Virus record (IMG/VR): IMGVR_UViG_3300027754_000014
Coordinates: 1 to 40,356 of that record
DNA length: 40,356 nt
Strand: one strand, 5' to 3'
DNA from: a virus
Shown: positions 13,259 through 29,046 of the stretch, piece after piece
Numbering within the stretch: position 1 is the stretch's first letter
Layout: each line of letters opens with the position of its first letter
Program-made: the position numbers and the translations under genes
The notes under the pieces: model-generated
Told to the model about the DNA's origin: nothing
Databases searched by the model: none
Seen by the model: only the letters and a program-made list of their open reading frames with translations

Positions 13259-13801
13259 CTACTTAATATGTTTAGGTTGTATTTTAGATAGATAAGGTCC
13301 TGCTGTAAATGCTGTAAGTTTGCTTGCAATCTCCATTGCTTGATAAGCATCAGCACCAGCATGTAATGCACCAAGTGCGTATGGTGCTCCAGAACCTGCT
13401 GCATAGACTCCATGTTCAGTTTTAGATACTGAGCATTCTTGGTCTATATCAAATATTTCGCCTCTAATGGCAACAATAAATTGAAATCTAAGTTCTTTAT
13501 TGTCTTCATCAAAGTTATAACCATTGTCTGCTAAACACTTACGAAGCGAAGGCATAGCCTTTGCAATCATAAAGTGATATAAATCTTTTCCATCTGCTTT
13601 AGTAGGAACTGGTGGTTCCCATATATGCTGTGCTACATCGCAAGGAAGAACCTCACCTGAACCAGCAATTAAAAATGGACCGCGTTCTGCAATCTTTTGA
13701 ACATTATGATGTGAATATATGAAACCACTACTATCAGTAGTTTGACTATCGGCAACAATAATTGCAGCGTCTTTATACTCTATCCCAATAATTGTTGTCA
13801 T
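13259..13801 (-). CDS. Proteasome/HslV-like Ntn-hydrolase (candidate maturation protease)
   Basis: 180 aa. The sequence begins MTTIIGIEYKDAAIIVADSQ, so Thr2 becomes the N-terminal nucleophile after Met removal. Asp18 and Lys36 take the places of the Asp17/Lys33 pair of proteasome beta subunits, and YAAGSGAPYALGAL matches the conserved GSG(x)YALGA segment. Length is that of a bare beta/HslV core with no propeptide. Actinobacteria have proteasomes, so the gene may be host-derived. It lies next to the portal, where other phages keep the head maturation protease, and no S14, S49, S78 or U35-type protease is visible elsewhere. A prohead protease role is therefore plausible but inferred. The ribosome site is AAGTAGGGGACAATG. 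Confidence 0.8.
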   Translation of the reverse strand: MTTIIGIEYKDAAIIVADSQTTDSSGFIYSHHNVQKIAERGPFLIAGSGEVLPCDVAQHIWEPPVPTKADGKDLYHFMIAKAMPSLRKCLADNGYNFDEDNKELRFQFIVAIRGEIFDIDQECSVSKTEHGVYAAGSGAPYALGALHAGADAYQAMEIASKLTAFTAGPYLSKIQPKHIK

Positions 13802-18256: not shown

Positions 18257-18434
18257 ATGGAGAGATAACTAGCGCGATGAATTCCTTAATGAATCAAGGC
18301 ATGGCGCGATAGGGCAAGAGATAAGACTAAGAGATAGACCGCGAGAGATAGCGGGCAGACCCGCGAGAGATGGCACAAGATAGGCGGCTAGTGTCGGGCT
18401 AGCCCGACAAGAGAGAGGAGAGGTGAGAGATAAG
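18257..18434. repeat. Cluster of AGAGATA direct repeats
   Basis: AGAGATA or AGAGATG occurs about six times in 180 bp, near 18260, 18318, 18332, 18346, 18366 and 18426. Two of them sit in a longer unit, GCGAGAGATRGC, spaced about 20 bp (two helix turns). Same orientation throughout. The regular spacing suggests protein-binding iterons or operators, not random purine bias. The palindrome at 18393-18408 lies inside the cluster. Confidence 0.5.
18393..18408. promoter_or_regulatory. 16-bp palindrome, copy 1 of 7
   Basis: GTCGGGCTAGCCCGAC, flanked T/A to give an 18-bp perfect palindrome. This is the only copy not near a start codon or gene end: it lies 219 bp before the 18628 gene within the AGAGATA repeats. 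As RNA it gives a 6-bp stem with CUAG loop; as DNA it is a symmetric site for a dimeric protein. Confidence 0.8.
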
Positions 18435-18627
18435 CCTGGGCGCAAGGCTAGGCGTAGGGCTAGGGAATAGGGGAAAACTAAGTTAGATCCAAGTAGGCAC
18501 ACTAAACCGCGTCTCTCACGCAACATAAGCGCGACACCTACGCTTTCCACCAGTTATGGGGAATCCTTGCCTCATGCTACGATAAGACCCTAGGCAAAAC
18601 CGCCTAGACCTATCAAGGAGAAAAAAA

Positions 18628-19236
18628 ATGCCCGTTAAGAACACCAAAAAAACAGTAGTGATAACCGCGCCAAAAATTACCAATGCTTGGTTAGCACTAT
18701 GCGATACAACTGCAAAGAGTGACTTGGTAAATATCGGTAAAATCGAAATCCTTGCAAATGAAATCGCGGCATCTCAACTTTCAATTAGAGATGTTATGAA
18801 AGTGATTAAAGAATCACCTGCCAAATCTTCAATCGTGAAAGTTAGTCATATTGAGGGTTTAACAACATGGTTGCATTTGCGTAAAGATAAGCAATTTCAA
18901 TCACTAGACCTCGACAAGCAACTATCTGCTGCCGTATCTGCTTACAAGTTGCTAGGCGTGAAAACCGCGCAAGGTTTAAAGGGTTTTGAGGCTGTCGCTA
19001 AGGCTACTAAGCAAGCACGCGCCACCAAGAATTCTAAGGGTAAAACACCTACTAAGGCTAAGGTTGAGGCAACTGTTGACCAAACTGTCGGCGCTATGAT
19101 TGCCTACATTATCGGGCTTGATTTCAGCAAGTTAGCCATATCAGAGATTGACGCACTAGCAGAATTGAATTTCACGCTAGAGGCTAAGATTGAAGCCAGC
19201 AATGAGGCTTGGGCATCTATAACTATGGATAACTAA
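18628..19236 (+). CDS. Unknown Lys/Ala-rich protein, separately terminated
   Basis: 202 aa, not recognised. An N-terminal helical domain (about 15-115, with IGKIEILANEIAASQLS and GLTTWLHLRKDKQFQSLDLD) is joined through a basic linker (ATKNSKGKTPTKAKVEAT) to a C-terminal helical hairpin (ISEIDALAELNFTLEAK). AAGGAG lies 8 nt before ATG in an A-rich leader, and a textbook terminator lies 16 nt after the stop. A single-gene unit with strong signals on both sides suggests high expression, possibly as the first early protein. The basic linker suggests nucleic-acid contact, which is inferred. No signal peptide or membrane segment. Confidence 0.75.
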   Translation: MPVKNTKKTVVITAPKITNAWLALCDTTAKSDLVNIGKIEILANEIAASQLSIRDVMKVIKESPAKSSIVKVSHIEGLTTWLHLRKDKQFQSLDLDKQLSAAVSAYKLLGVKTAQGLKGFEAVAKATKQARATKNSKGKTPTKAKVEATVDQTVGAMIAYIIGLDFSKLAISEIDALAELNFTLEAKIEASNEAWASITMDN

Positions 19237-19252
19237 GCAACAAGAAAGGTAG

Positions 19253-19280
19253 CCCCCGCGAAAGCGGGGGTTATTTTTTT
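19253..19280 (+). terminator. Rho-independent terminator after the 18628 gene
   Basis: CCCCCGC-GAAA-GCGGGGG: a perfect 7-bp stem with GNRA tetraloop, followed by TTATTTTTTT. It ends the rightward single-gene unit. It is the strongest terminator in the window. Confidence 0.95.
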
Positions 19281-19298
19281 GCCCTTTTATTCTAGGGT

Positions 19299-19314
19299 GT
19301 CGGGTTAGCCCGAC
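19299..19314. promoter_or_regulatory. 16-bp palindrome, copy 2 of 7 (T variant)
   Basis: GTCGGGTTAGCCCGAC. The only change from the consensus is C to T in the central 4 bases, leaving both 6-bp arms intact. It lies 18 bp after the T-tract of the terminator, well upstream of any start codon. Confidence 0.8.
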
Positions 19315-19340
19315 AAGCAGACCCGCCTAGAAATTCCAGC

Positions 19341-19411
19341 CCAAAATTTCAAAATTAAAAAATTTTGTCCAACACAAACTTCGCACCGCACACCGCACCG
19401 CACACCGCACC
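19341..19411. repeat. AT-rich inverted repeat next to 12-bp GC-rich tandem repeats
   Basis: CAAAATTT ... AAATTTTG (about 19342-19368) makes an AT-only inverted repeat. Right beside it, CGCACCGCACAC is repeated 2.5 times without error at 19382-19411. An AT-rich unwinding segment beside short iterons is the usual composition of a phage or plasmid origin. The sequence from 19281 to 19561 is otherwise noncoding. It also holds a TGGCCAT/ATGGCCA inverted repeat near 19421-19455 and a promoter at 19486. Confidence 0.5.
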
Positions 19412-19485
19412 TTTTCCGCTGGCCATATACCGCGTTTCGCACCTCGCATGGCCAATATTTCCGACACGCGGAGGCGTTTCTCGAT

Positions 19486-19514
19486 TTGGCCGAATCCTTT
19501 CCGTAGGGTAGAAT
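19486..19514 (+). promoter_or_regulatory. Candidate sigma-A type promoter
   Basis: TTGGCC (19486-19491), 17-bp spacer, TAGAAT (19509-19514). It lies about 79 bp before the ATG at 19593 and would transcribe the small-gene cluster 19593-20085. The downstream sequence AGACCTATCAAGG (from 19516) is also found just before the 18628 gene (from 18607), so the two units share part of their leader. Confidence 0.55.
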
Positions 19515-19561
19515 AAGACCTATCAAGGCAAGTTATGCTTACTTTGATAAACCAACCTAGT

Positions 19562-19577
19562 GTCGGGCTAGCCCGAC
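19562..19577. promoter_or_regulatory. 16-bp palindrome, copy 3 of 7
   Basis: GTCGGGCTAGCCCGAC ends 15 nt before the ATG at 19593. It sits in the leader predicted from the promoter at 19486, so it would be transcribed as a hairpin just 5' of the ribosome site (GAGCGAG). Confidence 0.8.
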
Positions 19578-19592
19578 AGAGAGCGAGTCAAG

Positions 19593-19730
19593 ATGTTTAA
19601 CCAACAGATACTCGAACAGATGATTGAGTCCAATCAAGTCCGAGAGAATAACCGCCAAGAAGCGGAACGCAAGGAAGCCATCCGCAAGGCTGGTATCGAA
19701 GCAATCGAGAGAGTTAGGAACTCAGCGTGA
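19593..19730 (+). CDS. Small charged helical protein
   Basis: 45 aa, not recognised. It reads MFNQQILEQMIESNQVRENN and continues as a Glu/Arg/Lys-rich helix ending ERVRNSA. It is all-helix and probably dimeric. It starts 15 nt after a palindrome copy and its stop overlaps the GTG of the next gene (GTGA), which supports translation. Possibly a small regulator or host-takeover peptide; no direct evidence for function. Confidence 0.6.
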   Translation: MFNQQILEQMIESNQVRENNRQEAERKEAIRKAGIEAIERVRNSA

Positions 19731-19915
19731 AGAACCCAACGATTGACCTATATTTAATGCACCCAGCAAGTATTTTGATCAACAATTATTATCAAGCGAA
19801 GGCATCAGATGATAATGATGAATACGCCGACTATCAAGATAACCTTTGCTGCTGCGGCATAGACTTTGAATGTTTTAATTGTCGCAACGCCGATATGCCA
19901 CAAGGGGGTGAATAG
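19727..19915 (+). CDS. Small Cys-rich protein (possible zinc knuckle)
   Basis: 62 aa, GTG start coupled to the preceding gene through GTGA. The C-terminal third has five Cys in CCCGIDFECFNC, suggesting one zinc site. The N-terminal half (IDLYLMHPASILINNYYQ) is a hydrophobic helix, too polar for a clear membrane span. No family recognised. The early region contains several such small Cys-rich products (see 23369 and 24297). Confidence 0.6.
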   Translation: MKNPTIDLYLMHPASILINNYYQAKASDDNDEYADYQDNLCCCGIDFECFNCRNADMPQGGE

Positions 19916-19917
19916 AT

Positions 19918-20085
19918 ATGGATGAATTCTTAGATGACTTTCCCGACTTCTTGTCTGATGAGGAAATCATGGAAATACTAGCCGCTGAAGCAGAGTTGGG
20001 AATTGACCTGACTGACCTCGAAGATGAGTATGAAGATGACTTTTTCGATGAAGATGCTGGAGATGTAGAGGAAGATACCTACTAA
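19918..20085 (+). CDS. Small highly acidic protein
   Basis: 55 aa with about 27 Asp/Glu and a single Arg/Lys-poor chain, starting MDEFLDDFPDFLSDEEIMEI. The charge resembles DNA-mimic inhibitor proteins, but so do many phage tail-end acidic peptides, so a mimic role is only a possibility. It starts 2 nt after the previous stop with AAGGGGGTG as ribosome site. It ends just before the tRNA-like element. Confidence 0.6.
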   Translation: MDEFLDDFPDFLSDEEIMEILAAEAELGIDLTDLEDEYEDDFFDEDAGDVEEDTY

Positions 20086-20094
20086 CAGCAGGTA

Positions 20095-20140
20095 GCCTAT
20101 ACTGGTGAGTGGTTCGCAGGTTCGATTCCTGCGGTAGGCA
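20095..20140 (+). ncRNA. tRNA-like T-arm/acceptor element, no full cloverleaf
   Basis: GCAGG-TTCGATT-CCTGC (20116-20132) is a perfect 5-bp T-stem with canonical T-loop, followed by GGTAGGC and discriminator A (20133-20140) but no CCA. A normal 5' half is missing. Three candidate partners exist for the acceptor strand: GCCTATA just upstream (20095-20101, six pairs including one wobble), TACCTAC inside the preceding gene (20076-20082, one mismatch), and TGCC(A)TACC downstream (20208-20216, eight pairs with a bulged A). The last would be a permuted order, also supported by GTGAGTG (20105-20111) matching CACTCAC (20233-20239). It may be an RNase P-type minihelix, a permuted tRNA/tmRNA-like gene, or a tRNA 3'-end remnant such as an attachment site; no integrase is present. 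Confidence 0.45.
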
Positions 20141-20141
20141 C

Positions 20142-20258
20142 GAGTGTATCGGTATGTTTGCTCAATCAGCAGGGAAACCTGAAATGATGTCAAACGCGGT
20201 CTACGCTTGCCATACCATAGCGGATGCCGATACACTCACTACATAGCAAATTGCTATG
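20142..20258 (+). ncRNA. Strongly paired noncoding segment (candidate structured RNA)
   Basis: GAGTGTATCGG (20142-20152) pairs perfectly with CCGATACACTC (20227-20237), 11 bp, enclosing 74 nt. Inside are GTTTG/CAAAC (20156-20160/20191-20195), a CAGG-GAAA-CCTG hairpin (20170-20181) and GCG/CGC (20196-20206). GGTATG/CATACC (20151-20156/20211-20216) is an alternative inner helix. A second hairpin, CATAGCA-AAT-TGCTATG, follows at 20242-20258. No ORF of size lies here, and the 209-nt gap 20086-20294 is otherwise noncoding. TTGCCA-N18-TACACT (20207-20236) could also be a promoter for the gene at 20295, so paired DNA sites and RNA structure are both possible. Confidence 0.5.
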
Positions 20259-20260
20259 GT

Positions 20261-20276
20261 GTCGGGTTAGCCCGAC
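20261..20276. promoter_or_regulatory. 16-bp palindrome, copy 4 of 7 (T variant)
   Basis: GTCGGGTTAGCCCGAC ends 18 nt before the ATG at 20295. The following leader ATTAGAAAGGAAAGTTATG is nearly identical to the one after copy 5, so palindrome plus ribosome site appear to move as one cassette. Confidence 0.8.
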
Positions 20277-20294
20277 AGATTAGAAAGGAAAGTT

Positions 20295-20375
20295 ATGAGT
20301 CCTGAACTGTATATCGCTGGTGCATTAGTTGTACTAGCAATAGTTGCGATTATCGTTGGTGGTGGTAAGGAATGA
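20295..20375 (+). CDS. 26-residue single-span membrane peptide
   Basis: MSPELYIAGALVVLAIVAII then VGGGKE. A single transmembrane helix (residues about 5-22) makes up nearly the whole product. AAAGGAAAG precedes the ATG, and the stop overlaps the next start (ATGA), so it is translated with the following membrane protein. Such two-gene membrane cassettes in phages include superinfection-exclusion and holin-regulator pairs, but nothing here identifies the role. Confidence 0.55.
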   Translation: MSPELYIAGALVVLAIVAIIVGGGKE

Positions 20376-20542
20376 TAACCTTATCTGCTGCCGACCTATT
20401 CGCAGTAACGCTAGCACTATTCTCCAGTTTAACAATTTTGATCGTGGCGTTTCGCCGCATCGCTGTTCTTGAGGCGCAAGTGCTAAGGCATCGTCGAGAA
20501 TTTTTCTCGACACAAACTTTTTCGGCGGGTGGTCGTCAATAA
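20372..20542 (+). CDS. Small membrane-anchored protein
   Basis: 56 aa. One transmembrane helix (DLFAVTLALFSSLTILIVAF, residues about 8-27) is followed by a basic cytoplasmic-type tail (RRIAVLEAQVLRHRREFF). It overlaps the upstream gene by 4 nt and the downstream gene by 1 nt. The 3' part of the gene contains an unusual DNA inverted repeat, GTCGAGAA-TTT-TTCTCGAC (20493-20511), and one copy of the GACACAAACTT motif, so the tail sequence may be dictated partly by nucleic-acid function. Confidence 0.6.
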   Translation: MITLSAADLFAVTLALFSSLTILIVAFRRIAVLEAQVLRHRREFFSTQTFSAGGRQ

Positions 20543-20763
20543 TGAGCCGTCGAGAAGTAGACTTTGCCAGCGAGATAATCCTATCTCTCCACCGAGATGA
20601 AATGGAGATGCTCCGAACGGCTCTCAAGCAATACCGCCTACAATGTGAGCGCAACGGCTTCACCGTTCTTGCGGTCAATTCTGAAATGTTGAGCGACAAA
20701 CTCAACAACATTATCCTAGATTCAATCCGTATCGGGTTTGACAAAAAGCATTCCCTAGTTTAG
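20542..20763 (+). CDS. Small helical protein of unknown function
   Basis: 73 aa: MSRREVDFASEIILSLHRDE followed by two further amphipathic helices. No motif recognised. It is coupled to the membrane gene by a TAATG overlap. Its last 26 bases hold the promoter for the amidoligase unit, so transcription of the downstream pair does not depend on reading through this gene. Confidence 0.6.
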   Translation: MSRREVDFASEIILSLHRDEMEMLRTALKQYRLQCERNGFTVLAVNSEMLSDKLNNIILDSIRIGFDKKHSLV

Positions 20764-20766
20764 ACT
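20738..20766 (+). promoter_or_regulatory. Consensus-type promoter for the amidoligase unit
   Basis: TTGACA (20738-20743), exact 17-bp spacer, TAGACT (20761-20766). The -35 box is a perfect consensus. It overlaps the 3' end of the previous gene and lies 65 bp before the ATG at 20832. The palindrome (copy 5) would begin about 23 nt into the transcript. Confidence 0.75.
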
Positions 20767-20796
20767 AGAGTCTGCAACCAAGTAGTAACACCTAGC

Positions 20797-20812
20797 GTCG
20801 GGCTAGCCCGAC
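20797..20812. promoter_or_regulatory. 16-bp palindrome, copy 5 of 7
   Basis: GTCGGGCTAGCCCGAC ends 19 nt before the amidoligase ATG and lies between the promoter at 20738-20766 and AAAGGAAAGG. It therefore falls within the 5' untranslated leader, where a hairpin would sit directly 5' of the ribosome site. Confidence 0.85.
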
Positions 20813-20831
20813 AGAATAGAAAGGAAAGGTT

Positions 20832-22046
20832 ATGGAAGATATCGACGATAACGAATTGTTAACTTGCAATAATTGTAACTCCGAAGTTAATGCAGATGAT
20901 TCCGTTATCAGTAGTTCACATGAACGACTATGCTCTGATTGTTGCTATATCTGCGAACATTGCGACAGTATCCGAAATCGAGATGACGGATACAATTCAG
21001 TAGATGATGCCATATGGTGCGAAGGTTGCACTGATGATGATGCTACTTGGTGTAATTACAATCGACACCAAGAATGGACTCAAGATTCATCCTATTGGAT
21101 ATCAGACATCGGCGAATCTTGGTGTTCAGGATGTGCCGATAGTCGAGCAAACTGGTGTGAGAGTTGCGAAGAATACTCTGCAGAAGGTTGCGATAGTTGC
21201 GAGGGTGGGGATTTCGTGAATGGTATCAAGGTTGTTCACGATTACACATATCGCCCTGATGCTATCTTCCACACCACCGATAACAACACACGCCTATTCT
21301 TTGGCATGGAGATTGAGGTAGAATCGCCTAATGGATGGGAAATCCGCAACGAATCTGCCCGTTATCTCTACGACAAGTTAGAGGCTGGCGCTTCACTCGC
21401 ATATCTCAAGAATGACGGCTCACTTAATTGTGGCTACGAGATAGTTACGCATCCCATGACCTATGACTTCTTTACCAACGAAGCCACAGAATTTTGGGAA
21501 TCACTAGACCATATTCGTGATGTATACAATATGAAATCGTGGGCTACTAAAACCTGCGGATTACATATTCATATCTCACGGACAGGATTCACTAATCCAC
21601 CACACCTACATAGATTCCTCAATCTTGTGTATTCCAACCCTGACTTCTATCAAGCAATGGCTGGGCGTAGTGCTAGTTCATGGGCTAAGTTTGATGATGT
21701 CATGTCCTACAATACAGAAACTAGAGTAGTTGGTCGGTCATACAAGAATAAGGTAGCCGACCCATCTAGAACTTCTACCGACCGATACTCAGCCGTCAAT
21801 ACCAATAACTACGCTACTATTGAGATGCGAATCTTCAAGGGTAGTATCAACAAGACCAATGTCCGCGGTGCTCTAGGCTTGGCTCACGCCAGCGTCGAAT
21901 ACACTCGAACCATGTCTATTCAAGAAGTCAAAGATGGCGCTCTCTGTGCATCTAATCTAATCAAGTATATCGAATCTAAACCTGAACTATATGCTGATAC
22001 TATAATCCGTATTGGCAAGGCAAGAATGACCGCAGTATTCAACTAA
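20832..22046 (+). CDS. Putative amidoligase with N-terminal multi-zinc domain
   Basis: 404 aa. Residues 158-340 carry the signature of the putative amidoligase family (Amidoligase_2, a glutamine-synthetase-like fold that uses ATP to join a carboxylate to an amine): FGMEIEVE (E160/E162 metal ligands), KNDGSL (193-197), CGLHIHI (242-248) and RYSAVN...ATIEMRIFKG (318-337). Residues 12-123 hold about 15 Cys, mostly as CxxC pairs (C12/C15, C34/C37, C41/C44, C63/C66, C98/C101, C109/C112, C120/C123), so several zinc-binding treble-clef or ribbon units may select the target. It is followed by a class II glutamine amidotransferase that could supply ammonia. The target is unknown; peptide-like modification of a protein or cell-wall component is the family precedent. 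Promoter, palindrome and ribosome site are all clear. Confidence 0.85.
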   Translation: MEDIDDNELLTCNNCNSEVNADDSVISSSHERLCSDCCYICEHCDSIRNRDDGYNSVDDAIWCEGCTDDDATWCNYNRHQEWTQDSSYWISDIGESWCSGCADSRANWCESCEEYSAEGCDSCEGGDFVNGIKVVHDYTYRPDAIFHTTDNNTRLFFGMEIEVESPNGWEIRNESARYLYDKLEAGASLAYLKNDGSLNCGYEIVTHPMTYDFFTNEATEFWESLDHIRDVYNMKSWATKTCGLHIHISRTGFTNPPHLHRFLNLVYSNPDFYQAMAGRSASSWAKFDDVMSYNTETRVVGRSYKNKVADPSRTSTDRYSAVNTNNYATIEMRIFKGSINKTNVRGALGLAHASVEYTRTMSIQEVKDGALCASNLIKYIESKPELYADTIIRIGKARMTAVFN

Positions 22047-22049
22047 CCC

Positions 22050-22065
22050 GTCGGGCTAGCCCGAC
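22050..22065. promoter_or_regulatory. 16-bp palindrome, copy 6 of 7
   Basis: GTCGGGCTAGCCCGAC begins 4 nt after the amidoligase stop and ends 18 nt before the amidotransferase ATG. It thus separates the two cooperating genes, with no room for a separate promoter upstream of the palindrome. That favours an RNA-level or read-through function at this site. Confidence 0.85.
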
Positions 22066-22083
22066 AGATACGGAGTAAAACTT

Positions 22084-22929
22084 ATGTGCTTATTAGTAGT
22101 TAGTTCGCCTAACTCAACGCCTAGCAAGAAGGACTTAGAATGTGCTTCTTGTAATAATCCTCATGGATTCGGCTATGCAGTAATTGGCGACAATGAAATC
22201 ATACGAGGTCGTGGTATGAGTGCTAAGAAGGTTGTCAAAGAATTCTTAGCAGTTCGTAAACAATACCCAAATAGTTATGCTATGTTCCACGCTAGACTTG
22301 CTACGCATGGAGTAAAGAACGAAGATAATTGTCATCCATTCATAGTGGGTGGCGATAGTGATACATATCTAGCCCACAATGGTATACTAGATGTTCAGAT
22401 AGATGCGACGGATAAGCGTAGTGATACGCGTGTATTTGCAGAGGATGTGCTACCTGCTATGGGTGGTGTTACCTCTCTAGATGATGACAATGTATGGAAG
22501 ATAATCAGCAGATGGGCTATGGGTAGCAAGATTGCTATCCTCACACTCAACCCCAATGCCAATGATACATGCTACATTATCAACGAAGATGCTGGTCATT
22601 GGGATAACGAAGGCAACTGGTGGAGTAATATGACCTACAAGGTTACGAATTACTGGGCGCTGCCGACACAAACTTCCACAGACAGGATCTTTTCCTACGA
22701 TGGCATTGCGCTCAATCCAGACGAATACACCTGCGTGAATTGTGATACAGTCCCGTATGAGGATGCCAATCCATACTACTGTGAGTCATGCTTCACCTGC
22801 TATGACTGCTCGGGGCTGTATGACAATACATGCCTATGCTGGTCTCCTGAGACCGATAGATATCAATCAAATGCACGTAAGGGAAGGGCTTGGTATGCTG
22901 ACACATTCTTCGATGCTGAAAAGCACTGA
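22084..22929 (+). CDS. Class II glutamine amidotransferase with C-terminal zinc cluster
   Basis: 281 aa. The sequence begins Met-Cys, so Cys2 becomes the N-terminal nucleophile typical of Ntn-type (class II) amidotransferases. HGFGYAVIG (27-35), FHARLATHG (68-76), CHPF (83-86) and LAHNG (96-100) match the glutaminase core of GATase-II enzymes. It releases ammonia from glutamine for a partner synthetase. Residues 217-252 hold eight Cys (C217/C220, C233/C236, C239/C242, C250/C252) likely binding two zinc ions, echoing the zinc region of the adjacent amidoligase and possibly forming the contact between them. No synthetase domain is fused, so the neighbour is the natural partner. GGAG lies before the ATG. 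Its last 35 bases overlap the next gene. Confidence 0.85.
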   Translation: MCLLVVSSPNSTPSKKDLECASCNNPHGFGYAVIGDNEIIRGRGMSAKKVVKEFLAVRKQYPNSYAMFHARLATHGVKNEDNCHPFIVGGDSDTYLAHNGILDVQIDATDKRSDTRVFAEDVLPAMGGVTSLDDDNVWKIISRWAMGSKIAILTLNPNANDTCYIINEDAGHWDNEGNWWSNMTYKVTNYWALPTQTSTDRIFSYDGIALNPDEYTCVNCDTVPYEDANPYYCESCFTCYDCSGLYDNTCLCWSPETDRYQSNARKGRAWYADTFFDAEKH

Positions 22930-23116
22930 CAACGAAATACTGAAAGATGCTCGCTGGGATGAGCAAGGATTCTATGTAAGTTGGGAATCTATCATTCCAT
23001 TGCGTGAGCATCTTGTTAATACTATCTACGCCTTGCAATCGGGCAAGGATACTGATATACTAATCGCACAGACACGACAACTACTTAAGGAGATAGGAGT
23101 AAACCTTGCCCCATAA
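22895..23116 (+). CDS. Small protein overlapping the amidotransferase end
   Basis: 73 aa starting MLTHSSMLKSTDNEILKDAR; the ATG at 22895 is chosen because AAGGGAAGGG lies a few bases upstream (22913 is the next option). The longer reading back to 22742 only shadows the amidotransferase. A segment RWDEQGFYVSWE resembles RWNENDGYEMFWDD in the next protein, so the two may be distant paralogues. A C-terminal helix (IYALQSGKDTDILIAQTRQL) follows. Close coupling places it in the amidoligase unit. Function unknown. Confidence 0.6.
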   Translation: MLTHSSMLKSTDNEILKDARWDEQGFYVSWESIIPLREHLVNTIYALQSGKDTDILIAQTRQLLKEIGVNLAP

Positions 23117-23369
23117 AATCGCACAAGAGATAACTGGAGAAGAGTTACTAAATAAATATATGATTCAATCCTCGGGTCCAAAAGTTACTTCTTGGGTCAA
23201 GGACGTAATACTTAATACTGGCGGAAATACTGGTGAATATACTGGTCGTTTACGCTGGAATGAAAATGACGGATATGAAATGTTTTGGGATGATAAGACA
23301 CCACCTGAAGCAGACCGACCTGAGTTCGAGTATATACTGGACTCCCTTACTAGACAGGATTACTACTAA
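23106..23369 (+). CDS. Small protein of the amidoligase unit
   Basis: 87 aa with a TTG start at 23106 preceded by AGGAGT 5 nt upstream; no ATG is suitably placed. It begins MPHKIAQEITGEELLNKYMI and has a compact acidic/aromatic C-terminal half with RWNENDGYEMFWDD, similar in pattern to the preceding protein. It overlaps that gene by 11 nt and the next by 1 nt. No family recognised. Confidence 0.6.
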   Translation: MPHKIAQEITGEELLNKYMIQSSGPKVTSWVKDVILNTGGNTGEYTGRLRWNENDGYEMFWDDKTPPEADRPEFEYILDSLTRQDYY

Positions 23370-23521
23370 TGAGTGAACCGCAATGGTTGGACGGTGATGA
23401 CCATGCACTAGGTATAGACCCTAGATGTAACGAATGCGATGAACGCCATGAAGAGGGTAACTGTGGCGTAGATAGCCCTGACCCTGATGTAGCCTACGAT
23501 GAGATGCATGAATCATGGTGA
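23369..23521 (+). CDS. Small acidic protein with C/H metal motif
   Basis: 50 aa starting MSEPQWLDGDDHALGIDPRC. The motif CNECDERHEEGNC (residues 20-32) places Cys, Cys, His and Cys for one zinc ion. The product is otherwise Asp/Glu-rich. The start overlaps the previous stop (TAATG) and its end overlaps whiB by 7 nt, so it belongs to one coupled string. Function unknown. Confidence 0.6.
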   Translation: MSEPQWLDGDDHALGIDPRCNECDERHEEGNCGVDSPDPDVAYDEMHESW

Positions 23522-23856
23522 CATCAGAGCCTCTACAAGGGGCTTGTAAGGACTATGAGAACCCTGACCTATGGTTTCCTGACATAGGTCGTGGGTTTGG
23601 TTATCAGGAACGCTTAGAGCAGACGGCTAAAGAATGTAATGTGGCTATGGCTATATGTAAATACTGTCCCGTAAAAACTAAATGCCTTGAAGAAGGTATG
23701 AAGTTTGAGAATATAAGTTATGGCATATGGGGTGGTCTAATGGCTGGCGAAAGATTGATCGCTGCTGGAGAACTACCTGATAGCCACCACATTGCTACTC
23801 CACAAGGGCTAGCACTTAATATGCTAAACAGGTTAAGACCTTATTTAAGGAGGTAA
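23515..23856 (+). CDS. whiB: WhiB-family iron-sulphur transcription factor
   Basis: 113 aa. WhiB proteins carry a 4Fe-4S cluster and bind the primary sigma factor to alter promoter choice; the family is limited to actinobacteria and their phages. C11, C48, C51 and C57 form the cluster set (CKYCPVKTKC has the C-x2-C-x5-C spacing), LWFPD precedes it, and GIWGG (70-74) is the sigma-contact turn. An extra Cys at 41 is present. The basic C-terminal tail (LNRLRPYLRR) is short, lacking the longer AT-hook seen in WhiB7. It overlaps the preceding gene by 7 nt. Likely roles are shifting host transcription or blocking superinfection, both inferred from phage WhiB precedent. Confidence 0.9.
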   Translation: MVTSEPLQGACKDYENPDLWFPDIGRGFGYQERLEQTAKECNVAMAICKYCPVKTKCLEEGMKFENISYGIWGGLMAGERLIAAGELPDSHHIATPQGLALNMLNRLRPYLRR

Positions 23857-23857
23857 T

Positions 23858-24241
23858 ATGAAACGATTAGCATTGTTCATCATAGCGGTGTTCATACTAA
23901 CATATTTCATACCGATTAAATCAGCAGATAGTCCACCAATAAAGCGTGAATGGACTAAGACAGATAGCAAGGCATACGCAAGAGATAGACTATCCGCTTG
24001 GGAGACTAAACAATGGAGATGTCTCGACAAATTATGGACAAAGGAGAGCCAATGGAATAGCAAAGCATACAATTCTGTAAAAGTAATGGGACGCAACGCT
24101 GGCGGTATTCCGCAAATACTTGGGATGTCTCCCAATCTACGGGCGACAGACCAAATAGATAGAGGTCTCGACTATATCGTATATCGCTATGCAACTCCGT
24201 GCCGTGCTCTGCAATTTCACGAAAGGAATTGGTGGTATTAA
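23858..24241 (+). CDS. Secreted lytic transglycosylase-like protein
   Basis: 127 aa. Residues 1-22 are a signal peptide or N-terminal anchor (MKRLALFIIAVFILTYFIPI). The mature part matches the lysozyme-like domain at the end of actinobacterial resuscitation or aggregation-promoting proteins: WRCLDKLWTKESQWN with the catalytic Glu in KES (E63), AGGIPQILG, and the terminal TPCRALQFHERNWWY. It would cut or remodel peptidoglycan outside the membrane. A strong AAGGAGGTAAT precedes the ATG. It is not near the lysis genes at 32.4-33.3 kb, so it more likely alters the wall during infection, or makes the wall unsuitable for other phages, than causes final lysis. Probably acquired from an actinobacterial host. 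Confidence 0.75.
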   Translation: MKRLALFIIAVFILTYFIPIKSADSPPIKREWTKTDSKAYARDRLSAWETKQWRCLDKLWTKESQWNSKAYNSVKVMGRNAGGIPQILGMSPNLRATDQIDRGLDYIVYRYATPCRALQFHERNWWY

Positions 24242-24265
24242 ATGTTCGCCGACACAAACTTTACT

Positions 24266-24281
24266 GTCGGGCTAGCCCGAC
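24266..24281. promoter_or_regulatory. 16-bp palindrome, copy 7 of 7
   Basis: GTCGGGCTAGCCCGAC, ending 15 nt before the ATG of the FmdB-like gene. The motif GACACAAACTTT ends 3 nt upstream of it. It begins 24 nt after the transglycosylase stop. Confidence 0.85.
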
Positions 24282-24296
24282 GGATAGGCTATTCAT

Positions 24297-24473
24297 ATGC
24301 CTAACTACGAATATAAATGCGCCATGTGTGGCATATCAGAAGAGCACCAACGCAGTATAGATGACAGGGATAACTTGCCAACTTGCTCAGAATGCTGTAT
24401 ACTAATGAATAGAATATGGCAAGCGAATCCTGTTCACTTCAAAGGTTCGGGGTTCTACTCAACGGGAGGCTAA
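24297..24473 (+). CDS. FmdB-type zinc-ribbon protein
   Basis: 58 aa. MPNYEYKCAMCGISEEHQRS gives the first CxxC, TCSECC the second, and FKGSGFYSTGG is the family's typical ending. FmdB-like proteins are small zinc ribbons annotated as putative regulators, with no proven mechanism. The intact start and end motifs show a full-length member. Its stop overlaps the next start as TAATG. Too short for many gene finders. Confidence 0.85.
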   Translation: MPNYEYKCAMCGISEEHQRSIDDRDNLPTCSECCILMNRIWQANPVHFKGSGFYSTGG

Positions 24474-25412: not shown

Positions 25413-26146
25413 TTCCAGGTTTTACCTTCTACCGTGAATGAGTTGTTTACGATTGGTACGAGTTGTGGTACAACTGTCTTGCCATCTACGTGTAGGATAC
25501 CGAAGCCCTGTTGCCAAGTGAATAGACCAGCCTTGATATACTTAGCATTGCGATAGTCCATGAGGTTGCCTAGTTCCATACCCCATATCGTTTTAGGCTT
25601 ACCGCCACGATATGATTGCGTATGATGTGTCAATCCCATGCGGTGTGTATGTCCACATGCTACTGACATGCCTGAACGCTTCGCTAAGCCTAGTGCGGTA
25701 GCACCTGCTGTTGGTTGCACATTGCCTTCATCGCCATGCATTAGAAGCCAACCTGGAGCCAGTTCATATGGGTCTGCGTGATATTTAATCTCTAGTTCAT
25801 CGAGGCCTAAAAAGTTTTCTAACCGAAGTTCAGGTAGCCCCAGTAATCCTGGCGCTCTCATTGCAACTGTATTAAATAAACGATCTGTATGATTGCTACG
25901 CACCATATGCTCGATGGTTAAATCATATAGAACTTGACGAGTCATATCCCTATCGCGTCCAATAGAACGCTCATACTCTAATTCGGTTCCCTTACTCCAC
26001 TTCGAGATTGTTTGCATATCCATTTCATCTCCGCAGGATGCTACGGTATCAGGTTGGTATGCCTTAATGAACTTTGCCACAGCCTTCGTTGCTTCGACAT
26101 CGTGATAAGGAACCTGAAGGTCTGAAATGATAACAATCTTTTTCAT
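25406..26146 (-). CDS. Calcineurin-like metallophosphoesterase
   Basis: 246 aa. Metal-site motifs are in order: D9/H15 (ISDLQVPYHD), D40 (CGDEMD), N/H in RSNHTD, H in LMHGDEG, and GHTHR. This is the two-metal phosphoesterase core as in Mre11/SbcD and phage phosphatases. No cap or coiled-coil domain. Similar genes are common beside replication genes in actinophages. The substrate is unknown; nucleic-acid ends or nucleotides are plausible. Translationally coupled to the HNH gene by TAATG. Confidence 0.85.
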   Translation of the reverse strand: MKKIVIISDLQVPYHDVEATKAVAKFIKAYQPDTVASCGDEMDMQTISKWSKGTELEYERSIGRDRDMTRQVLYDLTIEHMVRSNHTDRLFNTVAMRAPGLLGLPELRLENFLGLDELEIKYHADPYELAPGWLLMHGDEGNVQPTAGATALGLAKRSGMSVACGHTHRMGLTHHTQSYRGGKPKTIWGMELGNLMDYRNAKYIKAGLFTWQQGFGILHVDGKTVVPQLVPIVNNSFTVEGKTWKW

Positions 26147-26424
26147 TATTTCGCTCGTCTCTTATTCTCTTTACCAACGTTCTTTTTATGCGATAATGCA
26201 CTTAGGTTAGACATCTTATCATTAGTGCCAGCGCGACCCTTATTATCCTTGTGGTCTACATCTACTTTCTTGGACAACTTCTTTCCTGTTGCCTTCTCAT
26301 AGATTGCGCGAGCAGCGTTGGTAGATGTGGTTACTATCTTACCACCAACCTTTTTCTTGATAACCATAATTGGTCTACCACCATTAGCCTTGCTTCCTTT
26401 ATACGGACCATATACTTTAGCCAT
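26146..26424 (-). CDS. Small HNH-type nuclease
   Basis: 92 aa, strongly basic. VDVDHKDNKGRAGTNDKMSN followed by LSALSHKKN provides the D-H, N and H positions of a beta-beta-alpha-metal HNH site. The N-terminus (MAKVYGPYKGSKANGGRPIM) is a beta-strand-rich basic DNA-binding arm. It lies mid-operon and has no homing-site context (no intron or disrupted gene), so it is probably a resident phage nuclease. It overlaps the previous stop by 8 nt. Confidence 0.75.
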   Translation of the reverse strand: MAKVYGPYKGSKANGGRPIMVIKKKVGGKIVTTSTNAARAIYEKATGKKLSKKVDVDHKDNKGRAGTNDKMSNLSALSHKKNVGKENKRRAK

Positions 26425-26599
26425 TGTTGTTTTCCATTTCTGTTAGTATAATAGAATCAAATCGACGTTCTAGTTCTTCTGGCGTAAATAAATCTTCTTC
26501 TTGTGCAAGAATCCAAGATGTATACCCGTCTAATCGCACGTGAATATCATAAGCAGCCTTTGCTATCCATATGAATGGAAGCGATAAATAATATTTCAT
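26417..26599 (-). CDS. Small protein with hydrophobic N-terminus
   Basis: 60 aa from the ATG at 26599, which overlaps the upstream stop as ATGA; the alternative GTG at 26608 would have a poorer fit. It reads MKYYLSLPFIWIAKAAYDIH, then an acidic helix. The first 18 residues could insert in membrane. No family recognised. Confidence 0.55.
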   Translation of the reverse strand: MKYYLSLPFIWIAKAAYDIHVRLDGYTSWILAQEEDLFTPEELERRFDSIILTEMENNNG

Positions 26600-27027
26600 T
26601 TTTCCCACTTTCCTCTTAAGACTAGCAATCCTATGATTGCATAGTTAGCCATATCCTTAAATGAATCTTCTAAACTTTCGTGCTCTGGATTTTTATTGGT
26701 ATCAACCAAGTTATTTATGCGAGCCAACTTGTCGTGCATTCTTACTCGGAGGCCGTTAAGTGCACCCCCAGGTGCGTTTGAGATGTTGCTTGAGCCATAG
26801 TCTTTATGCTTGGATAGAAGCAAATCTTCCAACTCAGTATAAATTAAAGTTACATCACTTACGAATCTGCTTTCAGCACTTGCTTTTCTCGCAGCAGCAT
26901 AGGCTTCATCCTCTACTGGCTTCGGCTTAGCAATGGAATCTTCAAGGTTATAATTAGTGTATTCTCTTCCACCTGGTATTGGCTTATGTTTAATCCCTGG
27001 TTCCTTATATGTTCTATAATCTGCCAT
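26596..27027 (-). CDS. Nmad1 (DUF1599) protein
   Basis: 143 aa. The C-terminal 80 residues match the Nucleotide-modification-associated domain 1: LLLSKHKDYGSSNI, VRMHDKLARINNLVD, ESLEDSFKDMANYAIIGLLV. The all-helical fold resembles MazG-type nucleotide hydrolases, and family members are found in phages near base-modifying enzymes. Residues 1-50 are polar and disordered. It may bind or hydrolyse a modified nucleotide. The nearby PP-loop enzyme (28216) is a possible partner. Confidence 0.75.
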   Translation of the reverse strand: MADYRTYKEPGIKHKPIPGGREYTNYNLEDSIAKPKPVEDEAYAAARKASAESRFVSDVTLIYTELEDLLLSKHKDYGSSNISNAPGGALNGLRVRMHDKLARINNLVDTNKNPEHESLEDSFKDMANYAIIGLLVLRGKWEK

Positions 27028-28018: not shown

Positions 28019-28232
28019 ACCTTTCCTGCTTCGCAATTATCTGTAAACTGTTGCCTTGCATACCACACGCAAAACAATTAAATATATTTTCCCTGCTATT
28101 AAAACTTGCCGAACTATGAGTGTCATCGTGGAACGGACACTTTATATTTACTTGCCCTGTTGTTCTTCGGACTACTGCTCCGTAGTGCTCAAGAACTGAA
28201 ACTATATCTGGAAGATCATCCGTCATCGGCAT
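27858..28232 (-). CDS. DnaG-type primase, CHC2 zinc-finger part
   Basis: 124 aa. The ATG at 28232 is preferred (GAGG about 6 nt upstream); 28226 and 28265 are other options. CPFHDDTHSSASFN and FNCFACGMQGN supply the Cys-His-Cys-Cys zinc ligands of the DnaG template-recognition domain, followed by the usual AKSIAERITG helix and a basic tail. Only this domain is present; catalysis lies in the overlapping gene 27386-28018. Split primases in overlapping frames are known in mycobacteriophages. Confidence 0.85.
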   Translation of the reverse strand: MPMTDDLPDIVSVLEHYGAVVRRTTGQVNIKCPFHDDTHSSASFNSRENIFNCFACGMQGNSLQIIAKQERCDIREAKSIAERITGESHNQIRSKYSSGRRLPNKSGNNQGSGTDGTIRRSRGA

Positions 28233-29046
28233 CCACATCCTCAAAGAAACATCCACAACCGCCAATATCTAATTCATCTATCTCTTCTATTTCATCTTCT
28301 ACTCTTTTGCGAAACTGTGCTAACGTTAAAGGTCTACGAGGACCGCCACCGCTTCTATCGTTTAGGATAGATACATCTTTCCCAATGTGTTGGCGAACTT
28401 CTTCTTCCTTCTGCTCCCACATAGCATACCGCTCAGGCATTATTTGCAACAACTTTTTGAATTGTCCATGACCTGCTCTTACACATCCACCACCACAGTT
28501 ATTATGGGGAAATCCTAGAGTATACAGTTTAGGTATGGGCAGACCATCCTTCTCTGCTAGCCTTATCAATTCATCTTTATCAATGTAAGGTGGGTCAGTA
28601 AGTGGAGCCTTTACTTTGTATGGGGCATAATTCTTTTCGATTGCTGGTAGGCGATGAACCTCAGTCCAATCAATACCAACGTAGATTATAGTGTTCTCTG
28701 GGTCGCAGTTGTTAGTTACCCATTCCCAAGCAGGCTTTTGCTTAAGTTCATGAGAGCACTTAGCAACCCTACTATTACCTAAGAAATTAGAATCCTTGAA
28801 TACTTCCCAAATATCTCTACCTTCGTTTAGATAGATATAAGTTCCACCAATATTTTTTACAACAGCATCTATAAATTTATAGGTATCTTCATCCTCGCCA
28901 ATATGAGGTGACTCGCTATTGCCTTTTACATCTGAGAATACAAGGAATAGATTATCTGTCCCATACGCGGTTGCTATGATCTTTGCTGTGGCCCAGGAAG
29001 CAATACCTCCAGAAAACATAACTACGTGTTTAGTTTCCAAAGACAT
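28216..29046 (-). CDS. PP-loop (PAPS reductase-like) enzyme
   Basis: 276 aa. FSGGIASWATAKII near the N-terminus is the SGGxxS pyrophosphate-binding loop of PP-loop ATPases, and the fold pattern follows the PAPS reductase/adenylyl-transfer family. CGGGC and KCSHELK supply cysteines. The C-terminus GGCGCFFEDVDADDG is shared with many actinophage relatives. It could activate sulphur or adenylate a substrate. Related enzymes act in tRNA or nucleobase modification and in DNA phosphorothioation, but no other dnd genes are here. The adjacent Nmad1 gene makes nucleotide modification the leading guess. Confidence 0.75.
   Translation of the reverse strand: MSLETKHVVMFSGGIASWATAKIIATAYGTDNLFLVFSDVKGNSESPHIGEDEDTYKFIDAVVKNIGGTYIYLNEGRDIWEVFKDSNFLGNSRVAKCSHELKQKPAWEWVTNNCDPENTIIYVGIDWTEVHRLPAIEKNYAPYKVKAPLTDPPYIDKDELIRLAEKDGLPIPKLYTLGFPHNNCGGGCVRAGHGQFKKLLQIMPERYAMWEQKEEEVRQHIGKDVSILNDRSGGGPRRPLTLAQFRKRVEDEIEEIDELDIGGCGCFFEDVDADDG

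Follow-up and report, generated by a model that had tools for sequence, protein, structure and literature searches.

Pairs of an amidoligase and a glutaminase encoded side by side are of a kind already known in phages, with examples in Marvin, the OM43 phages, LUZ24 and phiEco32, and Iyer et al. are said to have made predictions in 2009 for the clusters of the latter two. MurT is a relative of the Mur ligases, and GatD is a class I glutaminase. Together they form a two-gene system for the amidation of a peptidoglycan carboxylate (PMC3267633). Both families of the OM43 phage pair have been named, and the suggested roles are cell-wall change and superinfection exclusion for phiEco32 and secondary metabolites for Marvin (PMC10580990). 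We found no biochemistry on phage amidoligase-glutaminase pairs in the literature covered. The founding papers on the family and on Marvin are Iyer 2009 and Mageeney 2012. These pairs occur in phages of very different bacteria.

Mycobacteriophages of cluster K carry short repeats (SAS/ESAS), some of them with inverted repeats, just 5' of the starts of non-structural genes. The inverted-repeat sequence differs between the subclusters of cluster K, and the evidence of Pope et al. gave hairpins little backing for these elements (PMC3203893).

The two genes and their cysteine-rich modules

The window analyzed here is a whole virus record of 40,356 bases. It encodes an amidoligase followed, on the same strand, by a class II glutaminase, with these features:

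20832..22046, plus strand: amidoligase gene, 404 aa, Amidoligase_2 / carboxylate-amine ligase of predicted glutamine-synthetase-like fold (PF12224 score, AlphaFold2 model, Foldseek)
20865..21200, plus strand: N-terminal Cys-rich, putatively zinc-binding array of the amidoligase, residues 12-123; family pattern of eight CxxC, one Cys replaced in the window (Cys conservation)
21279..21911, plus strand: catalytic core of the amidoligase, GMEIEVE (E160, E162, E164), CGLHIHI (H245, H247) and TIEMRIF (E331, R333) (invariant in 61 homologues)
22084..22929, plus strand: predicted class II glutamine amidotransferase gene, 281 aa (GATase_6, PHROG 25883, Foldseek)
22084..22641, plus strand: glutaminase core, Cys2 nucleophile, R71/T74/H75 (HARxATHG), N99/G100 oxyanion hole and D114 (invariant in 53 homologues)
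22732..22839, plus strand: C-terminal, putatively zinc-binding 8-Cys module of the glutaminase, C217..C252, CxxC-12-CxxC-2-CxxC-7-CxC (invariant in 53 homologues)

The sequence-only reading had called the first gene an amidoligase, the second a free-standing GATase-II, and had seen a Cys-rich module on each (about 15 Cys N-terminal, 8 Cys C-terminal); all three identifications are borne out. None of the outcomes named there as refuting it came about, since a profile match, a fold match and near-obligate co-occurrence were each obtained. The amidoligase ORF (20832-22046) contains the motifs named in that reading, GMEIEVE, CGLHIHI and ATIEMRIFKG, and matches the Pfam profile PF12224 (Amidoligase_2) with 33.5 bits, above the curated cut-off of 22. 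All residues listed above for its catalytic core are invariant in a 61-row alignment of non-redundant homologues, which share 42-61% identity with the window protein. The AlphaFold2 model built from this alignment has a mean pLDDT of 90.2, and Foldseek matched it to YbdK, GmaS (gamma-glutamylmethylamide synthetase), Dop/PafA and glutamine synthetases at a probability of ~1.0. The TM-scores against solved ligases are low (0.24-0.36 of query), and therefore the fold match is at the superfamily level only and does not indicate the substrate. Judging from the model, the protein is predicted to adopt the glutamine-synthetase superfamily fold. Its putative reaction would be ATP-dependent amide formation.

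The glutaminase ORF (22084-22929) contains Cys2, HARLATHG and AHNG. Of the Pfam families, only GATase_6 (25.4 bits against a cut-off of 27; E 1.6e-5) and GATase_4 (19.5 bits against 23; E 5e-4) were found, both with scores slightly under their cut-offs. PHROG 25883 matches the protein at 1.5e-40; the PHROG families matching the pair are mostly without a name. The residues C2, R71, T74, H75, N99, G100 and D114, which represent the N-terminal Cys nucleophile, the Arg/Thr/His set, the Asn-Gly oxyanion hole and the Asp for glutamine, are invariant among 53 non-redundant homologues with 60-77% identity to the window protein. In the structural model (pLDDT 78), much of the core exceeds 90 and the C-terminus is low; Foldseek matched the model to the glutaminase domain of GlmS (E 1.5e-7) and to EgtC, both at a probability of 1.0, with GlmS-type glutaminases outscoring EgtC. 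Despite the Pfam scores, the invariant catalytic residues and the GlmS/EgtC fold match identify the protein as a predicted class II glutaminase of the Ntn-hydrolase fold. Sequence searches of the PDB yielded nothing useful, and PADLOC assigned neither gene of the pair to a known defence system.

The family consensus of the amidoligase N-terminus consists of eight CxxC (C12..C123), that is, a 16-Cys array, of which the window protein lacks one Cys of the fifth CxxC, as judged from the 61-row alignment. The window protein has 16 Cys in residues 12-123, and 15 of these are family-conserved (conservation 0.67-1.00 over 72 homologues); the array is modelled with pLDDT mostly in the 83-96 range. The 8 Cys at positions 217-252 of the glutaminase are invariant in 53 homologues and lie in a low-confidence part of its model. 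Given this conservation, the modules are not due to chance, and the paired CxxC ligands conserved in both suggest that both probably bind zinc. No Pfam family was found for either module at E<=10, and no described zinc-finger family matches. A comparison of the two modules by hhalign gave 70% probability over 29 columns only, too little to claim homology between them.

Around the Cys-module residues, sequence evolves faster although the Cys are kept, with a mean distance of 0.60 vs 0.42 for the amidoligase and 0.52 vs 0.22 for the glutaminase. The distances of the two modules correlate beyond those of the catalytic cores (partial Mantel r 0.45, confounded by shared ancestry), which, because of the phylogeny, gives only a weak hint of module co-evolution. 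The suggestion of the sequence-only reading that the modules serve target choice or complex formation is a guess, with which the fast evolution and the distance correlation are weakly consistent. In ctgrD200 and similar phages, the amidoligase module is present and the glutaminase module is absent; therefore, docking of one module to the other is not general.

Host, pairing and proposed reaction

The terminase of the window is 76% identical to those of OX376640 and OX376641, the records LanE43-AprE7 (39.1 kb) and AprF5 (38.9 kb), which fit the 'Ca. Planktophila' phages E7 and F5. These two phages were cultivated on the 'Ca. Planktophila' isolate LanE-43, and whiB is a marker of actinophages (PMC10202952). 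The window and all 19 of the 19 related records carry whiB. Given the terminase kinship and whiB, the host of the window phage is probably a freshwater-type actinobacterium. E7 and F5 have the same gene order as the window but lack the amidoligase-glutaminase pair. When bacterial genomes were searched, a single match was obtained, at the end of a MAG contig, which is most likely phage DNA. No integrase was found in the window.

Several other genes of this phage deserve mention. A proteasome-type Ntn-hydrolase (13259-13801, minus strand; PF00227, 28 bits) adjoins the portal gene, is present in 8 of the 8 related genomes compared, and is perhaps a prohead protease. The gene at 28216-29046 (minus strand) encodes a protein that by eye resembles PAPS reductases and has a PADLOC match to SspD (3.5e-11); it may have a phage-borne function in sulfur modification or counter-defence. 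A DUF1599 'nucleotide modification associated' gene is located at 26596-27027.

The co-occurrence of the two genes that was anticipated for related phages is nearly complete. When the glutaminase alone was used to fetch viral loci, 78 of the 80 had the amidoligase directly upstream on the same strand, and the other two began at contig ends. Among 48 terminase-anchored records, 17 have both genes, 28 have neither, none has the glutaminase alone, and the three with only the amidoligase are cut by contig ends. Nine records are at least 36 kb long, of which six have both genes and three have neither; in these three, the slot between the terminase and whiB is filled by other genes. The pairing is near-obligate and, because the genes are present or absent together and the pair-less slots hold other genes, the pair is a cassette in a variable terminase-whiB slot that is gained or lost as a unit. 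The distance between the amidoligase stop and the glutaminase start is <=10 nt, or the genes overlap, in 36 of 46 genomes (9 overlaps), which fits coupled translation. Other cargo of the terminase-whiB slot in genomes without the pair (L253:2777-3496, L254:10368-11279 and L252:7940-8344) includes, by eye, an HExxH zincin of the SprT-like kind and a thermonuclease-like protein.

With moderate confidence, we propose that the pair is an early two-subunit, glutamine-dependent amidoligase that makes a primary amide, with an envelope carboxylate as the most likely target. In the scheme that we infer, from early expression, ammonia transfer, zinc binding and complex formation to the target and the purpose, the glutaminase would hydrolyze glutamine, with its Cys nucleophile exposed once the Met is removed, and would hand the ammonia to the amidoligase. 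In the glutamine-synthetase-like site of the latter, ATP and magnesium would activate a carboxylate for conversion to the primary amide, and the Cys-rich modules, probably binding zinc, would keep the two subunits in contact or anchor the substrate. The target would most likely be a carboxylate of the host envelope, in a peptidoglycan peptide or another surface polymer, with a host protein next most likely, and amidation of the envelope could alter the infected cell, for instance by guarding it against superinfection. Pairs of this kind are also carried by phages that infect Mycobacterium, Methylophilales, Christensenellales, Rhizobium, Pseudomonas and E. coli. Because these hosts belong to different phyla, the substrate is probably one that many bacteria share, and peptidoglycan peptides or a universal protein would then be better candidates than a rare metabolite. 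The pair has no envelope gene next to it, and the sequences themselves give no direct indication of an envelope target.

The main rival to this reading is a gamma-glutamyl make-and-remove cycle, in which the ligase would couple an amine to glutamate through the gamma-carboxyl of the latter, in the manner of YbdK/GCS2, GmaS and EgtA, and the GATase-like partner would later remove the gamma-glutamyl group, the step that EgtC performs on the way to ergothioneine; the outcome would be a small metabolite, made or unmasked by the pair, instead of a polymer amide. The best fold matches of the ligase, YbdK, GmaS and glutamate-cysteine ligase, and the presence of EgtC among those of its partner are in line with such a cycle, as are the gamma-glutamyl cyclotransferase and RimK-type genes of the larger LUZ24/phiEco32 clusters. 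However, GlmS-type glutaminases outscore EgtC and homologues of GGACT and RimK are missing from the window, and we regard the cycle as unlikely. Next in order of probability, and also improbable, comes a modifier of host proteins that would amidate or peptide-tag, for example, a translation or transcription factor recognized by the zinc modules. The conserved, fast-evolving Cys modules on both partners, with their correlated distances, and the protein substrates of the GS-fold relatives Dop/PafA speak for this possibility, but there is no linked target gene, several phage amidoligases of the same superfamily lack Cys modules, and shared ancestry confounds the distance correlation. Roles for amidoligase-type enzymes have been proposed in the modification of phage bases, and the genome contains the SspD-like and DUF1599 genes, but amidation of a modified base or nucleotide that would protect phage DNA is very improbable, given that base-hypermodification enzymes were not found among the scanned genes and that the pair is missing from relatives whose replication genes are the same.

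Hairpins before early genes

Both genes of the pair are preceded by a short hairpin that recurs in the surrounding region:

18393..18408, plus strand: hairpin palindrome copy, early region
19299..19314, plus strand: copy with loop TTAG, 3' of a terminator-like stem (19243-19280); no ORF start located 3' of the copy
19562..19577, plus strand: copy 15 nt 5' of a 45-aa ORF at 19593
20261..20276, plus strand: copy with loop TTAG, 18 nt 5' of a 26-aa ORF at 20295
20797..20812, plus strand: start-site hairpin GTCGGGCTAGCCCGAC, 19 nt 5' of the amidoligase start codon (recurrence)
22050..22065, plus strand: start-site hairpin of the same sequence as the copy at 20797, 18 nt 5' of the glutaminase start codon (recurrence)
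24266..24281, plus strand: copy 15 nt 5' of a 58-aa FmdB-type zinc-ribbon ORF at 24297

The palindrome before each gene that the sequence-only reading had described is indeed present, at 20797 and 22050, but is not peculiar to the pair. Within the window, the palindrome word GTCGGGYTAGCCCGAC is limited to seven copies in 18393-24281, most of them 15-19 nt 5' of a start codon, against a chance expectation of 0.06; therefore, a wider set of early genes is marked, not the pair alone. The consensus promoter of its own that had been assigned to the pair fared less well: a site, TTGACA-17-TAGACT, exists upstream at 20738-20766, but is no better than chance, with 24 promoter-like sites in the region vs 17.8 ± 4.0 in shuffles. 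A reading of the palindromes in terms of an immunity repressor is unsupported, there being no integrase in the window. A second short repeat, CGACACAAACTT, occurs at 19368, 20506, 22662 and 24248 of the window, with one copy within the glutaminase gene, and its core ranks first among the recurrent 10-mers of three related loci (L002, L020 and L054).

Recurrent hairpins are a general feature of the related loci: 59 of 60, including the window, have one hairpin with 5-bp arms that is repeated 4-10 times. When the arms are set to 6 bp, the best count averages 5.2, while 240 dinucleotide shuffles reach 2 at most, and an unbiased tally of recurrent 10/11-mers recovers the hairpin words. The stem is constant within a genome and varies between genomes (TCGGG, TCCGT, TTCGG, GTCGG, TATGA, CCGTA, CTATA and others among the relatives), and the centre comprises 3-4 nt. 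In the three hairpin-bearing genomes that were examined whole, the hairpins are confined to the early region. In 42 of 45 genomes, a hairpin of the genome's own type lies no more than 70 nt from the amidoligase start; 31 of 45 have one ahead of the glutaminase, where it often falls within the 3' end of the amidoligase coding sequence because the intergenic gap is short. No hairpin set was found in G018, G040 and G041, which have a more distant pair, in G023, G034 and G042, which have no pair, or in E7/F5. The RNA fold energy of the two leader hairpins alone is unremarkable (z -1.3 and -0.2), so the case for the hairpins is one of recurrence, not of stability.

Between close relatives (L056/L066 and L029/L034), the hairpin word differs while the flanks are nearly identical. 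In the stretch of L066 aligned to L056:5968, before the glutaminase, there is a decayed old-type hairpin, GTCCGCTTTGACGGAC, vs GTCCGTTTAAACGGAC in the relative, and the other sites of L066 have a new hairpin word, GTCGGCTAGCCGAC. Asymmetric centres are oriented, with TAA 117 times vs TTA 29 times and, with TCGGG stems, TTAG 25 times vs CTAA 0 times (the sites are not independent). Because the asymmetric centres have a preferred sense, we lean away from a symmetric DNA operator and towards a directional site or an RNA element.

We tentatively suggest, as a possibility against which the odds still stand, that, of the cargo of an early gene set in which each phage marks 4-10 early starts with its own hairpin word of 13-18 nt, the pair is the best conserved, that nearly the whole set of words changes from one close relative to the next with the same flanks, and that a co-changing phage factor would read the word on the mRNA (or the DNA). 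If so, the hairpin word would give each phage private control of its early genes, including an envelope-changing amidation enzyme. The hairpins beside the pair raise a separate question, namely, how such phages address their early genes. A search for hairpin-restricted genes returned a sole candidate, the gene at 26146-26424 (minus strand; start 26146/26149), which encodes a small basic protein that is HNH-like by eye, with no Pfam match. All three hairpin-bearing genomes examined whole have it, the six other genomes compared do not, and it is a weak candidate for a hairpin-linked factor.

Comparison with known systems

The nearest published counterpart of the start-site hairpins is the SAS/ESAS of cluster K. 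The elements of the window and its relatives differ from these in being short perfect hairpins that are different even among close relatives. The 13-bp SAS repeat GGGATAGGAGCCC is not among the most recurrent 10/11-mers of the loci, which are either hairpins or CGACACAAAC.

Other amidoligase-like genes came to light in two phages. Bifidobacterium phage BA720P3 has an unannotated amidoligase-like ORF (L015:2868-3767) with GIEIE, GGHIHV, TIELRTF and an N-terminal Cys cluster, which was missed by Pfam and lies two genes upstream of a class II glutaminase. In Clostridioides phage AR1086-1, an amidoligase without an adjacent glutaminase (L013:5743-6855) is followed by an RlaP-type RNA-repair gene, with kptA nearby. 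The ligase fold, therefore, does not always need a glutaminase partner, and the AR1086-1 protein possibly represents a different use of it.

MurT/GatD resembles the window pair in the working model, without homology. In phiEco32 and LUZ24, as in the window, the amidoligase adjoins a class II glutaminase in what is predicted to be a wall modifier. Their ligases are, however, very distant from that of the window, with matches near or below significance, and have no CxxC motif; their clusters add genes for a COOH-NH2 ligase, a RimK-type ATP-grasp enzyme and a gamma-glutamyl cyclotransferase. Unlike this type of cluster, the window has no RimK or GGACT homologue, and COOH-NH2_lig was not found in the window in a search that had no positive control. 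The Methylophilales (OM43) phages MEP401 and MEP402 have an adjacent pair as in the window, but with a short Cys cluster on the ligase alone and none on the glutaminase.

Among cultivated phages, the closest pair is gp105/gp106 of Marvin (Marvinvirus, cluster S), which are adjacent, in the same order, and 33% and 34% identical to the window pair. Marvin gp106 has an 8-Cys C-terminal module like that of the window glutaminase, whereas the Marvin ligase differs from that of the window by a shorter N-terminal Cys region and a long extra C-terminal part. The window can be linked to two tractable systems: the cultivated 'Ca. Planktophila' phages E7/F5, in which the pair is missing, and Marvin in M. 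smegmatis, in which it is present. The window adds a large family of pairs from aquatic-type actinophages, about 60 distinct sequences, with invariant active sites and defined Cys modules. What is new, compared with the systems described before, is the variant found in relatives of E7/F5, with a 15-Cys N-terminal array (16-Cys in the family) on the amidoligase and an 8-Cys C-terminal module on the glutaminase.
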